This document shows positions 30,416 to 58,803 of a stretch of 64,000 bases of DNA, piece after piece; position 1 is the stretch's first letter, and the number at the start of each line of letters is the position of its first letter. This DNA is from a virus, in the IMG/VR virus record IMGVR_UViG_3300036770_008686, positions 1-64,000 of that record; one strand, written 5' to 3'. The translations under genes were made by a program, and so were the position numbers. Below the pieces are notes generated by a model. That model was not told the origin of the DNA, did no database searches, and worked only from the letters and a program-made list of their open reading frames with translations.

Positions 30416-30901
30416 ATGATTAAATGTCAATGCTGTGGAGAAAAAACTACAAATCCCAAATTTTGTTCAAGATCTTGTTCTGCCAAAATAACTAACAAGA
30501 TACCCAAGCGTAAAAAAAATATTAGTTGCTGTGTTTTGTGTGGCAAAGAAACCGAATTTTTCAGACGTAAATATTGTCAAATTTGCAATCCAATGAAAAA
30601 AGATTGGGATAAAATTACTTATGGGGAGGCAACCGGCAGACGTAAGTATCAAAAAAATTCTCGTATACGCAACTTAGCTCGCAATGCATATAAAAATTCA
30701 AATAAGCCAAAACGCTGTATCGTTTGCGGGTACTCTTCTCATTTTGAAGTTTGTCATGTAAAATCTATATCATCATTTCCAAGCGAAGCAACAATAGCAG
30801 AAATTAATCACATAAACAACTTAATAGCATTATGTCCTAACCATCACTGGGAACTAGATCACAATATTTTAGTACTGCCGGTAGGATTTGCACCCACGTA
30901 A
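30416..30901 (+). CDS. HNH homing endonuclease with zinc-finger N-terminus
   Basis: The 161-residue plus-strand protein starts with zinc knuckles (CQCCGEKTTNPKFCSRSC and CVLCGKETEFFRRKYCQIC) and ends with the HNH core: CIVCGYSSHFEVCHVKSI, INNLIALCPNHHWELDH. This plan is that of free-standing homing endonucleases. Its last ten codons run antisense through tRNA-Arg, which suggests the gene inserted next to, and merged with, the tRNA. Promoters for it and for the minus-strand PTH2 gene share 30323-30415. Confidence 0.8.
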   Translation: MIKCQCCGEKTTNPKFCSRSCSAKITNKIPKRKKNISCCVLCGKETEFFRRKYCQICNPMKKDWDKITYGEATGRRKYQKNSRIRNLARNAYKNSNKPKRCIVCGYSSHFEVCHVKSISSFPSEATIAEINHINNLIALCPNHHWELDHNILVLPVGFAPT

Positions 30902-30945
30902 ATCAACTTAGAAGGTTGATGCCTAATCTACTCGGCCACGGCAGC
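30873..30945 (-). tRNA. tRNA-Arg (UCU)
   Basis: Acceptor GCTGCCG/CGGCAGT with a G1-U72 wobble, D-stem GCC/GGC, anticodon stem TCAAC/GTTGA with loop CTTCTAA (anticodon UCU, codon AGA), T-stem GTGGG/CCTAC. The T-loop is TGCAAAT, so the usual U55 is G. CCA is not encoded. The 3' end overlaps the plus-strand HNH gene. Confidence 0.85.
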
Positions 30946-31004: not shown

Positions 31005-31273
31005 TAGGAGCGGTGGGACTCGAACCCACACTTGAAGGATTTTCTTACTACTATGGCTTTCGCCACCCTCTCGGTTTGTAGTCTGGACTTTACCTTCACC
31101 ATTACCTTTCGGTTTTAGGTGCTGCCCGTCAAGTCTCTACACCTTCCCTTACGGGCTTGGCTCGGTATTAGCAGTTAAGCCTCCACCGAATTTGAGCAGT
31201 TCTACTCTAAAGGTTTCCCTCTAGGCACTCAATTTCATTAAGTCCTTTGACTCTGCCGTTGGTCTACGCTCCC
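31005..31273 (-). tRNA. tRNA with UAA anticodon (Leu), split by a group I intron
   Basis: Exon 1 is 31240-31273 (34 nt) and exon 2 is 31005-31043 (39 nt). Joined, they give a 73-nt cloverleaf: acceptor GGGAGCG/CGCTCCT (G1-U72), D-stem GAC/GTC, anticodon stem AAGGA/TCCTT with loop CTTAAAA (anticodon UAA, codon UUA), T-arm GTGGG TTCGAGT CCCAC. The intron sits between U34 and A35. A leucine tRNA should have a long variable arm, but this one has five bases. CCA is not encoded. Confidence 0.85.
31044..31239 (-). other. Group I intron in the anticodon of tRNA(UAA), 196 nt
   Basis: The 5' exon ends in U and the intron ends in G. Core pairings can be drawn: P1 GGACUU with GAGUGCC (U-G at the splice site, one bulge), P3 CUGCUC/GGGCAG, P4 UUCGGU/ACCGAG, P7 GACUU/AAGUC (R and S elements, AGAGACUUGACGG and AAAGUCC), P8 CACC/GGUG, and a GAAA-capped P9. 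There is no internal ORF. Insertion point and core resemble the tRNA-Leu(UAA) introns of cyanobacteria and plastids (IC3 type). Confidence 0.88.
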
Positions 31274-31303
31274 AATCTTCTAGTTTAAAACGGTCTACTT
31301 CAA

Positions 31304-31376
<73 letters not shown>

Positions 31377-31384
31377 AATTAACT

Positions 31385-31866: not shown

Positions 31867-31953
31867 CCTTTCTTGGCGTGCCGCCGGGAATCTCTTGCAT
31901 TGACTAGAGTTTGATCTCTAGTGACGCCTTTGTGGGAGGTTCCCGGCTTTTTT
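31867..31953 (+). ncRNA. Candidate small RNA 2
   Basis: About 87 nt. An outer stem pairs GCCGGGAATCTC (from 31883) with GGGAGGTTCCCGGC (31934-31947), followed by a T run; an inner perfect hairpin ACTAGAG/CTCTAGT sits in the loop. It ends at the stop codon of the convergent CCA-enzyme gene. Together with candidate 1 it accounts for most of the gap 31601-31951. Confidence 0.6.
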
Positions 31954-33184
31954 AATCTCTTGATCCATTGTAGATTTCAAATTCGTCCTGATTCATTTTT
32001 TTACTTATATCTGGACCGTTTAAATGTGAATAGTCTTGACTTTTTGTTTGAATTTCATAATCTAAAAATTTCCAAGCCTTGTTAACACTGCCTATAATTT
32101 TCCCATACTCTAATAGACTTATTCTTTTTTCTTTATGTAAATCTTCTTTCATTCTTAAAAGTTTTATAATATTTTTATTATTTAATTCATAGAAAACAGT
32201 GTGTATAAAAAACACAGTATCAGATATTTGGTTAGAATATTTTAATTGATTTAATTTTTGTCGTGTTTCTTTTGGATCATTTTCTCTTAATATATAAGTA
32301 ATTATTGCTGTCGAATCCCTAGTTTTGTTAACATTGCTATCGACTCTCACCTTAAGTCCAGGGAAAATAGTTTCCAAAAGACCAAGACTTTTAAAGCTTA
32401 AAATATAGCTTTCAATATTTAAGCTGGTTTTTAGTCCGCTCAAAAACTCAGCACTTATTCTTTCTTTGCTTACACCTTTTAAATCTTTGTAATTGTCTAT
32501 AGCGCTTATTGTTCTAGGGTCTAGGTGTTTTGAGATAATATCGTTGTTGAATCTTGAAAAAAATCTTATCAATCTTAACACTCTAAGTTTGTCTTCTCTA
32601 AACCTCTCAAAAGGATCACCTACCACCCTAACTTTTTTGTTTTTAATGTCAATAAAGCCCTGTCCTTTTCCTTGGCTATCGATATTGTAGTCTTTTATTT
32701 CTTTGTTGTTTAAGTCATAAAAAAGAGCGTTTATATTTAAATCTCTTCTTTTTGCGTCTTCTTTTGCATTGCTATAAGTAACCTCGTCTGGTCTTCTTCC
32801 GTCGCCACTCAAAGAATCATAATATTCTTTTCTGAAGGTTGCTATCTCAAACTCTTTTCCGTTTACTATGGCACTAATTACTCCAAAACTAGCACCTTTT
32901 GCAAAAACCTTAATACCAGCGGCGGCGGCTTCTGGAGAACTTAGTATTTTTTCAACCTGCTCGGGTGGTTGATCGGTGGTTAGATCTATATCTTTTGGAT
33001 TATATGGTACATCTTTTTGATGAAAAAGATGATATAAATAGTCTCTTATAGAACCACCTACTGCATACAGTTTTGCTCCAAATTTACTAAAAAGACCATT
33101 TAACATATGCACTTCGTCCGGCATAGGAACTTCTGCGGCAAGGCTCTCATACTCTTCAGTAATTAACCAATTTTTAAAATTCAT
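31952..33184 (-). CDS. cca: CCA-adding tRNA nucleotidyltransferase
   Basis: The 410-residue protein is a class II nucleotidyltransferase: YAVGGSIRDYL (40-50), the catalytic DIDLTTD (65-71), KRRDLNINALFYD and the ATP/CTP-recognising EDKLRVLRLIRFFSRF. The C-terminal half is helical. It adds or repairs the 3' CCA of tRNAs; none of the tRNAs in this window encodes CCA, so the phage carries the enzyme needed to finish them. The N-terminus MNFKNWLITEE fits the shared MxFxxWLxxxE leader. Confidence 0.88.
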   Translation of the reverse strand: MNFKNWLITEEYESLAAEVPMPDEVHMLNGLFSKFGAKLYAVGGSIRDYLYHLFHQKDVPYNPKDIDLTTDQPPEQVEKILSSPEAAAAGIKVFAKGASFGVISAIVNGKEFEIATFRKEYYDSLSGDGRRPDEVTYSNAKEDAKRRDLNINALFYDLNNKEIKDYNIDSQGKGQGFIDIKNKKVRVVGDPFERFREDKLRVLRLIRFFSRFNNDIISKHLDPRTISAIDNYKDLKGVSKERISAEFLSGLKTSLNIESYILSFKSLGLLETIFPGLKVRVDSNVNKTRDSTAIITYILRENDPKETRQKLNQLKYSNQISDTVFFIHTVFYELNNKNIIKLLRMKEDLHKEKRISLLEYGKIIGSVNKAWKFLDYEIQTKSQDYSHLNGPDISKKMNQDEFEIYNGSRD

Positions 33185-36450: not shown

Positions 36451-36891
36451 ATGGAAAAAGAATTTTTAAATAAAGACCAAATCAAGCAGGAAATTAAACA
36501 AGAAATAAAAGAGTTTAAAAAATTTGCCTTAAAAGAAGATACCATGAAAATAGCGATTGCTGTCATAGTGGGTGGCTCAATACAAAGGTTTGCCAACTCT
36601 ATATCGAATGATATATTATCGCCTATAATAAACCTTTTAGTATACAAACCAAGTGGGTTTTGGAACAAATTAGCTGTCAGCATCAACAAAGATACTAAAA
36701 TAGAAATAGGCAACCTAATAAGTTCATTTTTAGAATTTACAATAATATCTTTAATAGTTTATGTAGTTTATATGAAGCTAATAAAAAATTTAATTAAAAA
36801 TGAAAATATTAATAATAAGACTTGCAATCAATGCTTTTCTTCTATTAACTACATGGCAAAAAGATGTCCATATTGTACAAGTAGACTGTAA
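36451..36891 (+). CDS. mscL: MscL-like large-conductance mechanosensitive channel with zinc ribbon
   Basis: After a charged N-terminal helix, FKKFALKEDTMKIAIAVIVG followed by SIQRFANSISNDILSPIINL (about 22-62) matches the MscL N-terminal and first membrane helix. The second span is about 90-112. The C-terminus adds a zinc ribbon (C125, C128, C139, C142) absent from ordinary MscL. MscL opens under membrane tension. In a phage it could buffer osmotic stress or aid lysis or entry; that is inference. Confidence 0.72.
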   Translation: MEKEFLNKDQIKQEIKQEIKEFKKFALKEDTMKIAIAVIVGGSIQRFANSISNDILSPIINLLVYKPSGFWNKLAVSINKDTKIEIGNLISSFLEFTIISLIVYVVYMKLIKNLIKNENINNKTCNQCFSSINYMAKRCPYCTSRL

Positions 36892-51558: not shown

Positions 51559-51662
51559 TAGTTCAAATAATTATAGCGAATAACTTCACCAAAAGGTGGC
51601 TTAACATCGCTAGTTCAAATCATTATAGCGAATAACTTCACCAAAAGGTGGCTTAACATCGC
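51559..51662. repeat. 52-bp tandem duplication over the end of the VWA gene
   Basis: 51559-51610 and 51611-51662 differ at one base (A/C). The second copy encodes the C-terminus of the 51610..52866 gene; the first is a leftover downstream of the stop. Confidence 0.9.
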
Positions 51663-52866
51663 TAGTCATGACCCATAGAACGTCTAGTTTTGGATCAACT
51701 CCAAACTCTCCGTATCCATCAGTAAAAAATACACAATAGTCAGGCTTAATTCCATTGTTTTTAAGATGTTCGAATACTGGTCTAAAGTCTGTTCCTCCAC
51801 CACCCTTTAATGAAGGCAAAGGCTCAAAAGGATTAATCCATCTACTAGAGTAAACACCAGCATCACAATCTAAAAAGTAAACCTTAGCATTAAGTTTCTT
51901 CCTAAGATCTTCAAGTTCGCTAATAGCACTATTAAGGTCTTCTTCGCTCATGCTGCCACTGGTATCTACAGCATATGCAAGTTTTGGACTATCCGGGCCT
52001 ATGTTACTGGGAAAAATAAAGTCGCCACCCAAGAACCTTCTGTTAGGGAAATTCCAAGTAACATCTCTTTTTTCAAGTCTGCTAGTTCCAAACCTCATTT
52101 TCTGCCTGAGGGCTGTAACCCAATCCACCTTACTCTTAAGATGAGAATTTATAATTCTCTCTAAGCCAACGGGAATATCACCCTGGCTTTTTGCAACAGT
52201 ATAAGCATCACAAACAGCTTTGTTAACAAAATCTTTAAGCTCTTGATCTGCTTGCTTTTTGCTTTTACCTTTTGTTTCCGGCAGCGGTACACGTCTATCT
52301 CTAACAACAGAAGATGATCCTTGACCCTCTCCGTCAGCAGATTCTTCACCTAAAATATCTTCCATGTTTAGCTGAATAACTTCTGCCTTGTTGATCAAGT
52401 CAGAATAAATTAATTCAGCATTCATTCCATCATACAAAGGCTTGTCGGTTTTCCAACTATCATCAAAAATGCCGCCTTTGATAATATACTTTTCATTCTC
52501 AAACTGATACCATAACATCAAATTTACTGCATAATCTACTGCAATGTTCCAAATAACAGGATCTCTATTTGCTCTTCTAGGGTTGTGCTCAAAGACAAAG
52601 TGGCTTATTTCGTGTGCGACCAAGAATAAAAATTGATGGTCGGTTAGTTTAATACAAAAATCATAATTAAAGATAATATGGCCATTCTTATCAACACAGG
52701 CTGTAGGAACAGCTGTTTTTGTAACACTATACTTGCACCGCTCACTAAGCACACCCCAAAAAGGATAATGATGAGCAAAAGCAAAAAGAATAGTGTCAAT
52801 TTTCTTGCGAAAATTATCCTCTTCTTCTTCGGTTAATACGTTATTTTTTTCAATAGTTTTAGTCAT
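51610..52866 (-). CDS. DUF2201-type metallopeptidase/VWA protein (pair 2)
   Basis: The 418-residue protein has an N-terminal zinc-peptidase-like HEISHFVFEH (85-94, HExxH) and a C-terminal VWA-like domain with AVDTSGSM (300-307) and DCDAGV, GGGGTDFRPV and FFTDGYGEFG. This plan is that of the DUF2201 family, which pairs with MoxR-like ATPases. Function in phages is unknown. Its mRNA start is preceded by a strong hairpin. Confidence 0.78.
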   Translation of the reverse strand: MTKTIEKNNVLTEEEEDNFRKKIDTILFAFAHHYPFWGVLSERCKYSVTKTAVPTACVDKNGHIIFNYDFCIKLTDHQFLFLVAHEISHFVFEHNPRRANRDPVIWNIAVDYAVNLMLWYQFENEKYIIKGGIFDDSWKTDKPLYDGMNAELIYSDLINKAEVIQLNMEDILGEESADGEGQGSSSVVRDRRVPLPETKGKSKKQADQELKDFVNKAVCDAYTVAKSQGDIPVGLERIINSHLKSKVDWVTALRQKMRFGTSRLEKRDVTWNFPNRRFLGGDFIFPSNIGPDSPKLAYAVDTSGSMSEEDLNSAISELEDLRKKLNAKVYFLDCDAGVYSSRWINPFEPLPSLKGGGGTDFRPVFEHLKNNGIKPDYCVFFTDGYGEFGVDPKLDVLWVMTSDVKPPFGEVIRYNDLN

Positions 52867-58433: not shown

Positions 58434-58450
58434 CCTTGAAAAAATTAAAA

Positions 58451-58803
58451 TGGAGGCGAGGGGAGTCGAACCCCTGTGTTGTGATAATTTTAATATGACC
58501 TCTACAAGTTTATTTTGTTCATAAATTTTGAGAAAGACTAAAGAACAAACAACATTCATCTTTCCGTACCAACAAGTCTTAGTCTAGGACCCGTTGGCTA
58601 TCCTAGAAGCAGAAGGATTTTACGACGATTTTTCGGACGCTACCTTCAATCGCTTCCTAAAATCGTTGCTGCTATTTATTAAGCAGCAAGAGCTAACTGA
58701 TTTGTGCCAGTTAAAGCATTAATCTGGTTTTAAAGTAGCCTCCAGATCAACTACTACTTGCTAGTCACAGTAAATTTTATCCAATCGATACCTTTACGCC
58801 CCC
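58451..58803 (-). ncRNA. ssrA: tmRNA (transfer-messenger RNA)
   Basis: The 353-nt RNA starts GGGGGCG and ends CGCCTCC-A, forming a 7-bp acceptor stem with the third-pair G-U that alanyl-tRNA synthetase needs. The 3' part has a T-arm GGGG TTCGACT CCCC. The tag reading frame is at 58682-58717, coding ALTGTNQLALAA followed by two stops, with the LALAA ending recognised by ClpXP-type proteases. CCA is not encoded. tmRNA releases stalled ribosomes and tags the peptide. Confidence 0.93.

Follow-up and report, generated by a model that had tools for sequence, protein, structure and literature searches.

A compact group I intron in the anticodon loop of a phage tRNA-Leu(UAA) and its relatives in other tRNA genes

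Introduction

Group I introns of tRNA genes are best known from cyanobacteria and plastids; these introns are ancient and have mostly been kept by vertical inheritance. For bacteriophages, a 2014 review placed all of the introns observed by then in protein-coding genes, despite the many tRNA genes found in phages (PMC3984707). A search of the open-access literature found no later report of phage tRNA introns, and the word “intron” is absent from both the huge-phage paper and the paper on phage Atu_ph07. Intron-bearing tRNA genes of the kind described here are present in the uncultured 735-kb phage record LR756501 and in Atu_ph07. In the record of a Microcoleus phage (OR578706), the annotation lists a tRNA-Arg of 286 nt; one or more records have thus included a gene of this kind, uncommented. 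With default settings, the tRNA finder ARAGORN skips intron-bearing tRNA genes, and tRNA counts for large phages may therefore be underestimates.

This report describes one such gene in a phage represented by IMG/VR record IMGVR_UViG_3300036770_008686, of which positions 1 to 64,000 were analyzed as a single stretch of 64,000 nucleotides (hereafter, the window). Judged from its sequence, the segment 31239-31044 on the minus strand is an intact group I intron within a phage tRNA-Leu(UAA). It is very probable that the tRNA is a working one and that the intron belongs to a family of small, mobile anticodon-loop introns.

Structure of the Interrupted tRNA Gene

The gene runs from 31273 to 31005, and all of its parts lie on the minus strand. 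Its 5' exon (31240-31273; 34 nt, GGGAGCGTAGACCAACGGCAGAGTCAAAGGACTT) has C32, U33, and U34 as its last bases and is delimited both by ARAGORN in intron mode and by an uninterrupted twin in viral contig L244. The intron (31044-31239; 196 nt), which is identified by the Rfam model RF00028, by structure, and by covariation, closes with the omega-G at 31044. The 3' exon (31005-31043; 39 nt, AAAATCCTTCAAGTGTGGGTTCGAGTCCCACCGCTCCTA) begins with A35 and is of class I, with a 5-nt variable loop and the discriminator A73; it does not encode CCA. Joined, the two exons are predicted to form a 73-nt tRNA with the anticodon UAA. When introns are allowed, ARAGORN returns a tRNA-Leu(taa) with a 196-nt intron (“gactt-Intron-aaaat”); in default mode it reports no intron-bearing tRNA-Leu in the window. 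The intron contains no ORF of 60 or more amino acids.

Helices P1, P2, P3, P4, P5, P6, P7, P8, and P9 can all be drawn on the window sequence. P1 and its loop (31227-31243) join exon bases A31, C32, U33, and U34 to the guide GAGU (intron positions 10-13), with an AAU/AUU extension. P2 (31207-31224) is a 7-bp helix with a GAAA loop; P3 pairs the 5' strand CUGCUC (31194-31199) with 31127-31122. The P4-P5-P6-P6a domain (31141-31189) is defined by the drawn structure together with covariation. The guanosine-binding helix, P7, pairs its 5' strand GAGACU, which includes a bulged A (31132-31137), with 31089-31085. P8 and an inner hairpin occupy 31097-31121, and P9 and P9b, the latter with a GAAA loop, occupy 31047-31082.

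These helices were compared across 60 aligned relatives, of which 48 are viral and 12 cellular. Standard pairs fill 94.1% of the pair cells, a measure that in itself favors the true register over slid ones, given a structure based on the window sequence. Compensatory changes weigh more, and both-side changes are found at 36 of the 56 pairs. The covariation score is 0.482, compared with 0.161 for shuffles (0/500) and at most 0.108 for slid-partner controls. Every pair of P2 (7/7) and of P3 (6/6) covaries, as do three of the four P8 pairs, all three pairs of the inner hairpin, and four of the five pairs of P9b, and P9 is 100% paired. P7 is paired in 99.7% of cells and is nearly invariant, with its bulged A, as expected for the guanosine site. 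The U34.G10 wobble that marks the 5' splice site is kept as U.G in 59 of the 60 relatives. The terminal G is also invariant, which is no test, as it belonged to the pattern by which relatives were sought.

The Rfam model Intron_gpI (RF00028) matches 31249-31063 (minus strand) with 50.7 bits (E=3.4e-12; gathering cut-off 50) in a cmscan restricted to the region and run with permissive filters; when the whole window was scanned with default filters, the intron was not reported. Relatives mostly score between 52 and 96 bits, with two phage relatives at 40-42 bits, and sampled introns from other tRNAs give comparable values (Gln, 61.2 bits; Asn, 62.5 bits; Lys, 53.4 bits), except for the Lys intron of L485, which reaches only 36.6 bits. 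DUF805, IMES-2, and other weak Rfam matches in the region were rejected as overlapping and under the cut-off.

A preliminary description, made from the letters alone, had proposed a 196-nt group I intron without an ORF, split the tRNA between U34 and A35, drawn P1, P3, P4, P7, P8, and P9, and suggested a covariance-model search. Its account of the intron holds: the Rfam core match and the intron mode of ARAGORN agree on the intron, ARAGORN places the split at the same point, the joined exons equal the tRNA of L244, and the six helices are drawn here with compensatory changes among the 60 relatives.

The Rfam score barely exceeds the cut-off, and splicing is predicted from sequence, both of which leave a little room for a decaying or non-splicing insertion in a tRNA pseudogene. 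With the catalytic helices all intact and covarying, the exons identical to an intact tRNA, and every tRNA stem paired, such a pseudogene is scarcely credible. In the intact intron favored here, the RNA would fold with CUU of the exon paired to the guide GAG; an external guanosine, bound in P7, would cleave after U34; and U34 would then attack behind the terminal G, so that the exons become a 73-nt tRNA able to read UUA.

The predicted product exists as a gene. Viral contig L244 encodes a tRNA without interruption that equals the predicted 73-nt spliced form at every base, and this contig is similar on both flanks to the intron-bearing phage contig L068 (503 nt upstream, 80%; 232 nt downstream, 71%). 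By this flanking similarity, L244 and L068 are the empty and occupied versions of the same site.

The Host tRNA and Its Surroundings

The preliminary description had noted a standard UAA anticodon. The interrupted gene does not encode a standard tRNA-Leu(UAA): the tRNA lacks the long variable arm and has a 5-nt variable loop in its place, which sets it apart from the canonical class II form. The D arm has three pairs with a mismatch at 13.22, and A73 is present (from the sequence and the ARAGORN drawing). A 3-bp D stem, a 13.22 mismatch, and A73 are Leu-type traits, and on these the molecule may be read as a tRNA-Leu that lost its long arm. Class I genes for tRNA-Leu(UAA) often occur free of an intron, as in P-SSM7, in P-RSM6, and in at least 120 viral stretches. 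The armless tRNA-Leu(UAA) with a Leu-type D arm is represented by window positions 31005-31273 and by L244-L363. The intron-bearing gene is the sole tRNA-Leu detected in the window phage, in which 38% of leucine codons are UUA and the GC content is 32%.

Two intronless tRNA genes flank the interrupted one on the same strand: tRNA-Arg(UCU) at 30872-30945 (ARAGORN) and tRNA-Lys(UUU) at 31303-31377 (ARAGORN; Rfam, 74.5 bits). A CCA-adding tRNA nucleotidyltransferase is encoded at 31952-33184 (minus strand; PHROG 2244, E=7.9e-41; PolyA_pol), 575 bp from the tRNA-Lys gene that neighbors the intron-bearing tRNA. This phage enzyme probably supplies the CCA missing from the tRNA-Leu gene and would so complete the spliced tRNA. 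On the opposite strand, an ORF of 161 amino acids encodes an HNH_2 endonuclease (30416-30901, plus strand; Pfam PF13391, 28.8 bits; PHROG HNH). Its 3' end overlaps the tRNA-Arg gene and lies 104 bp from the 3' end of tRNA-Leu.

Neither a near-identity search of phage records with 25 kb of the window nor a search for relatives via the neighboring CCA-adding enzyme gave a match. The window phage carries a second group I intron, between ORFs without assigned function (G000:C1:100348-100584, minus strand, also held as L001:1501-1737; 56 bits). Other features of the window include a phage tmRNA at 58448-58803 (minus strand; 104 bits) with the tag GTNQLALAA, which is also the tag of the tmRNA in L105; a putative DUF2201 metallopeptidase with a VWA-like domain at 51610-52866 (minus strand); and a phage MscL mechanosensitive channel at 36451-36891 (plus strand).

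Relatives in tRNA-Leu(UAA)

Relatives in tRNA-Leu genes were sought with a pattern made of the intron 3' core and the UAA 3' exon, which selects one 3' core and misses more distant introns. The pattern occurs in at least 120 viral stretches and at least 109 bacterial contigs; these counts are lower bounds rather than prevalences, and the viral contigs are metagenomic, a source in which the occasional contig may be cellular and mis-sorted. Class I tRNAs account for 21 of 123 viral genes (the matches listed, two phage records, and the window), and the remainder are class II. Among cultured phages, Agrobacterium phage Atu_ph07 (MF403008; L007:957-1318) has an unannotated class II tRNA-Leu(UAA) with a 278-nt intron, and as this phage is cultured, splicing is open to test now.

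Among the matches listed, the introns nearest to that of the window are a phage tRNA-Leu intron (L075, 88%) and then three tRNA-Lys introns (L388, L385, and L389, 81-84%). The nearest phage intron is about 88-89% identical to the window intron, other bacterial tRNA-Leu introns have a median identity of 72%, and nine canonical cyanobacterial trnL introns, at about 61%, form a clade of their own (100/100). The preliminary description had likened the intron to the trnL introns of cyanobacteria and plastids and suggested aligning it with the former; the likeness stands for the insertion site and the general fold and gives way on closeness, as the window intron falls outside the cyanobacterial clade. 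Of the two histories that it offered, transfer from a cellular tRNA gene or an old phage lineage of the intron, the old phage lineage is the better fit.

The cellular history, in its most direct form, is a recent gain of intron and tRNA together from a host trnL of the cyanobacterial or plastid type. Such a gain would account for the shared site, anticodon, and general fold, and bacterial tRNA-Leu(UAA) introns with a matching 3' junction are present in at least 109 contigs. It is nonetheless very unlikely, given the separate cyanobacterial clade, a phage tRNA that is missing the long variable arm seen in its cellular counterparts, the abundance of similar intronless phage tRNAs, and nearest introns that lie in phage tRNA-Leu and tRNA-Lys.

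Introns of class I and class II tRNA-Leu genes interleave on the intron tree, with eight changes of class, at least three of them forced by well-supported branches. In AU tests, a single origin of the class I introns is marginally rejected (p=0.029), and a single origin within one phage lineage is not rejected (p=0.27). In the related phages L081 (9623-9838) and L086 (4325-4534), the introns and flanks are nearly alike, and the exons are class I in one and class II in the other.

Introns in Other tRNA Genes

The intron family extends beyond leucine to several other phage tRNAs, a range that was out of view for the preliminary description. Relatives of the window phage, recognized by their RIIA protein, carry the matching intron type in tRNA-Gln, tRNA-Arg, and tRNA-Met. 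A wider scan used 3' exons that begin otherwise than with A35, and loci were parsed by a P1 rule that required at least three pairs with the intron's own exon; splitting of these tRNAs without the rule gave false anticodons and was discarded. A few doubtful entries (Tyr, Phe, stop-codon anticodons, and very long introns) do not enter the counts. Non-redundant viral introns occur at three adjacent sites: between positions 34 and 35 in Leu(UAA) (at least 60), Arg(UCU) (at least 10), Lys(UUU) (at least 7), Gln(UUG) (at least 2), and Ile(UAU) (at least 2); between 33 and 34 in Met(CAU) (at least 13), Leu(UAA) (at least 4), and Arg(UCU) (at least 4); and between 35 and 36 in Asn(GUU) (at least 8) and Lys(UUU) (at least 7).

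The guide follows the exon, with the pairs CUU/GAG, GACU/GGUC, GCCU/GGGC, CUUU/GAAG, and GCUGU/GCAGC. The best P1 has a mean length of 3.6 with the intron's own exon and 2.3 with the exons of other tRNAs, a comparison that is partly circular, as parsing required own-exon pairing of at least three, and so lends support without being an independent test. When P1 is left out of the tree, the matches listed show 30 changes of tRNA type, several of them forced by well-supported branches; the bootstrap of this tree is rough and had not settled.

Strict vertical inheritance would make this an old phage tRNA-Leu intron that diverged with its phages and never moved from gene to gene. Intron and flanks do diverge jointly in some phage clades (e.g., L081 and L086). 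The interleaving of class I and class II introns, the 30 changes of tRNA type among the matches listed, and a site that is occupied or empty in related phages make strict inheritance very improbable, and movement of the intron among genes is the reading preferred here.

Several further observations concern the range of these genes. Phage contigs G067 and G070 hold three or four group I introns each, and several of these interrupt tRNA genes that differ from one another. The tRNA-Arg of Microcoleus phage OR578706 (L008:813-1098) has the anticodon CCU and a 213-nt intron; elsewhere the Arg type is UCU. A possible class II tRNA with the anticodon UCA, split between 34 and 35 (L468:11654-11743), could be a suppressor or selenocysteine-like.

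In bacteria, the non-Leu pattern is rare: in two phyla, 4 of 395 genomes and 3 of 398 match it. Among the former four is one whose 3' exon is of the Leu type and begins with U34. The Leu pattern gave one and two matches in the same genomes, seeds counted. Met- and Arg-type tRNA introns of the family lie in bacterial genomes in L525-L531, where they may belong to prophages. A phage-only distribution of the non-Leu introns was rejected on the 4/395 and 3/398 genomes, and the intron family is thus not confined to phages. There is perhaps an even chance that a broader proposition is true, namely that phages carry a large intron family specific to the anticodon loops of tRNAs, which passes from one tRNA gene to another, unrelated one, changes among the three adjacent sites by rewriting a guide of 3-5 nt, and exchanges with bacterial genomes, with phages possibly a main reservoir of bacterial tRNA introns.

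Proposed Mobility and HNH Endonucleases

HNH genes are contained in 25 of the 27 long viral class II introns. Short introns have them nearby: within 600 bp, HNH density is 0.50/kb for class I and 0.32/kb for class II loci, compared with 0.007/kb for intronless class I tRNAs, and it falls to near nil further out. These free-standing HNHs are related to the intron-borne ones. Counted by non-redundant loci, an HNH lies within 1.2 kb of 9 of 16 class I and 15 of 52 class II introns and of 2 of 102 intronless tRNAs (Fisher p=6e-8 and 1.4e-6, each against the intronless set), a contrast that could partly reflect phage sampling, since the intronless controls are unmatched for phage lineage. The HNH query sequences derive largely from the tRNA introns under study. 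Near non-Leu introns, many of which are near-copies, the density is 0.258/kb within 600 bp and 0.004/kb beyond 4.8 kb. The enrichment of HNH genes beside intron-bearing tRNAs suggests homing. The HNH_2 of the window, which adjoins tRNA-Arg and differs in subfamily from the HNHs beside other introns, is a possible homing partner.

Spread could instead have occurred solely by reverse splicing, with HNH genes as passengers that accumulate in tRNA clusters for other reasons. A guide match of 3-5 nt would suffice for it, an HNH is missing from the surrounding 1.2 kb of many short introns, and the window HNH belongs to another subfamily. Since HNHs are found near intron-bearing rather than intronless tRNAs and are homologous to the intron-borne HNHs, reverse splicing as the sole route is possible but rather doubtful. 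In the mobile family proposed here, introns would pass from one tRNA gene or phage to another through homing driven by an HNH, with the enzyme encoded in the intron or in an adjacent gene, or by reverse splicing, and would adapt to new tRNAs by changes in the guide sequence.

Comparison with Known Systems

A phage intron family spread over leucine, lysine, arginine, methionine, asparagine, and glutamine tRNAs offers a living system for the origin of new intron sites. It makes the guide sequence and empty sites available for study, along with intermediate phages and enzymes that are candidates for homing.

The trnL introns of cyanobacteria resemble the window intron in their site (U34|A35), a P1 of CUU/GAG with U.G, a small core, and the order of helices. 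They differ in forming a separate clade at about 61% identity, in their 3' end, and in a host that is a cellular class II tRNA, whereas the host here is a class I phage tRNA. The tRNA-Leu(UAA) introns of other bacteria (Bacteroidota, Pseudomonadota, Bacillota, Acidobacteriota, and others) share both the site and the terminal AGURGUAAG with the window intron at a median identity of about 72%; their hosts are cellular class II tRNAs, and their clades lie mostly apart from those of phage introns.

Group I introns of phage protein genes (e.g., T4 td, Twort, and cyanophage psbA) are likewise self-splicing, as the window intron is predicted to be, and have a homing endonuclease inside or nearby, as the tRNA introns may have; here, in contrast, the host gene is a tRNA and the core is small. 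A parallel for the pairing of an intron with a separate enzyme is collaborative homing, exemplified by F-CphI beside the psbA intron (PMC6083498; PMC10448857), in which an intron free of an endonuclease gene also adjoins a free-standing one. The tRNA introns differ from that system in that homing is deduced from gene neighborhood alone, that the candidate enzymes belong to the HNH family, and that the target would be the tRNA anticodon loop.
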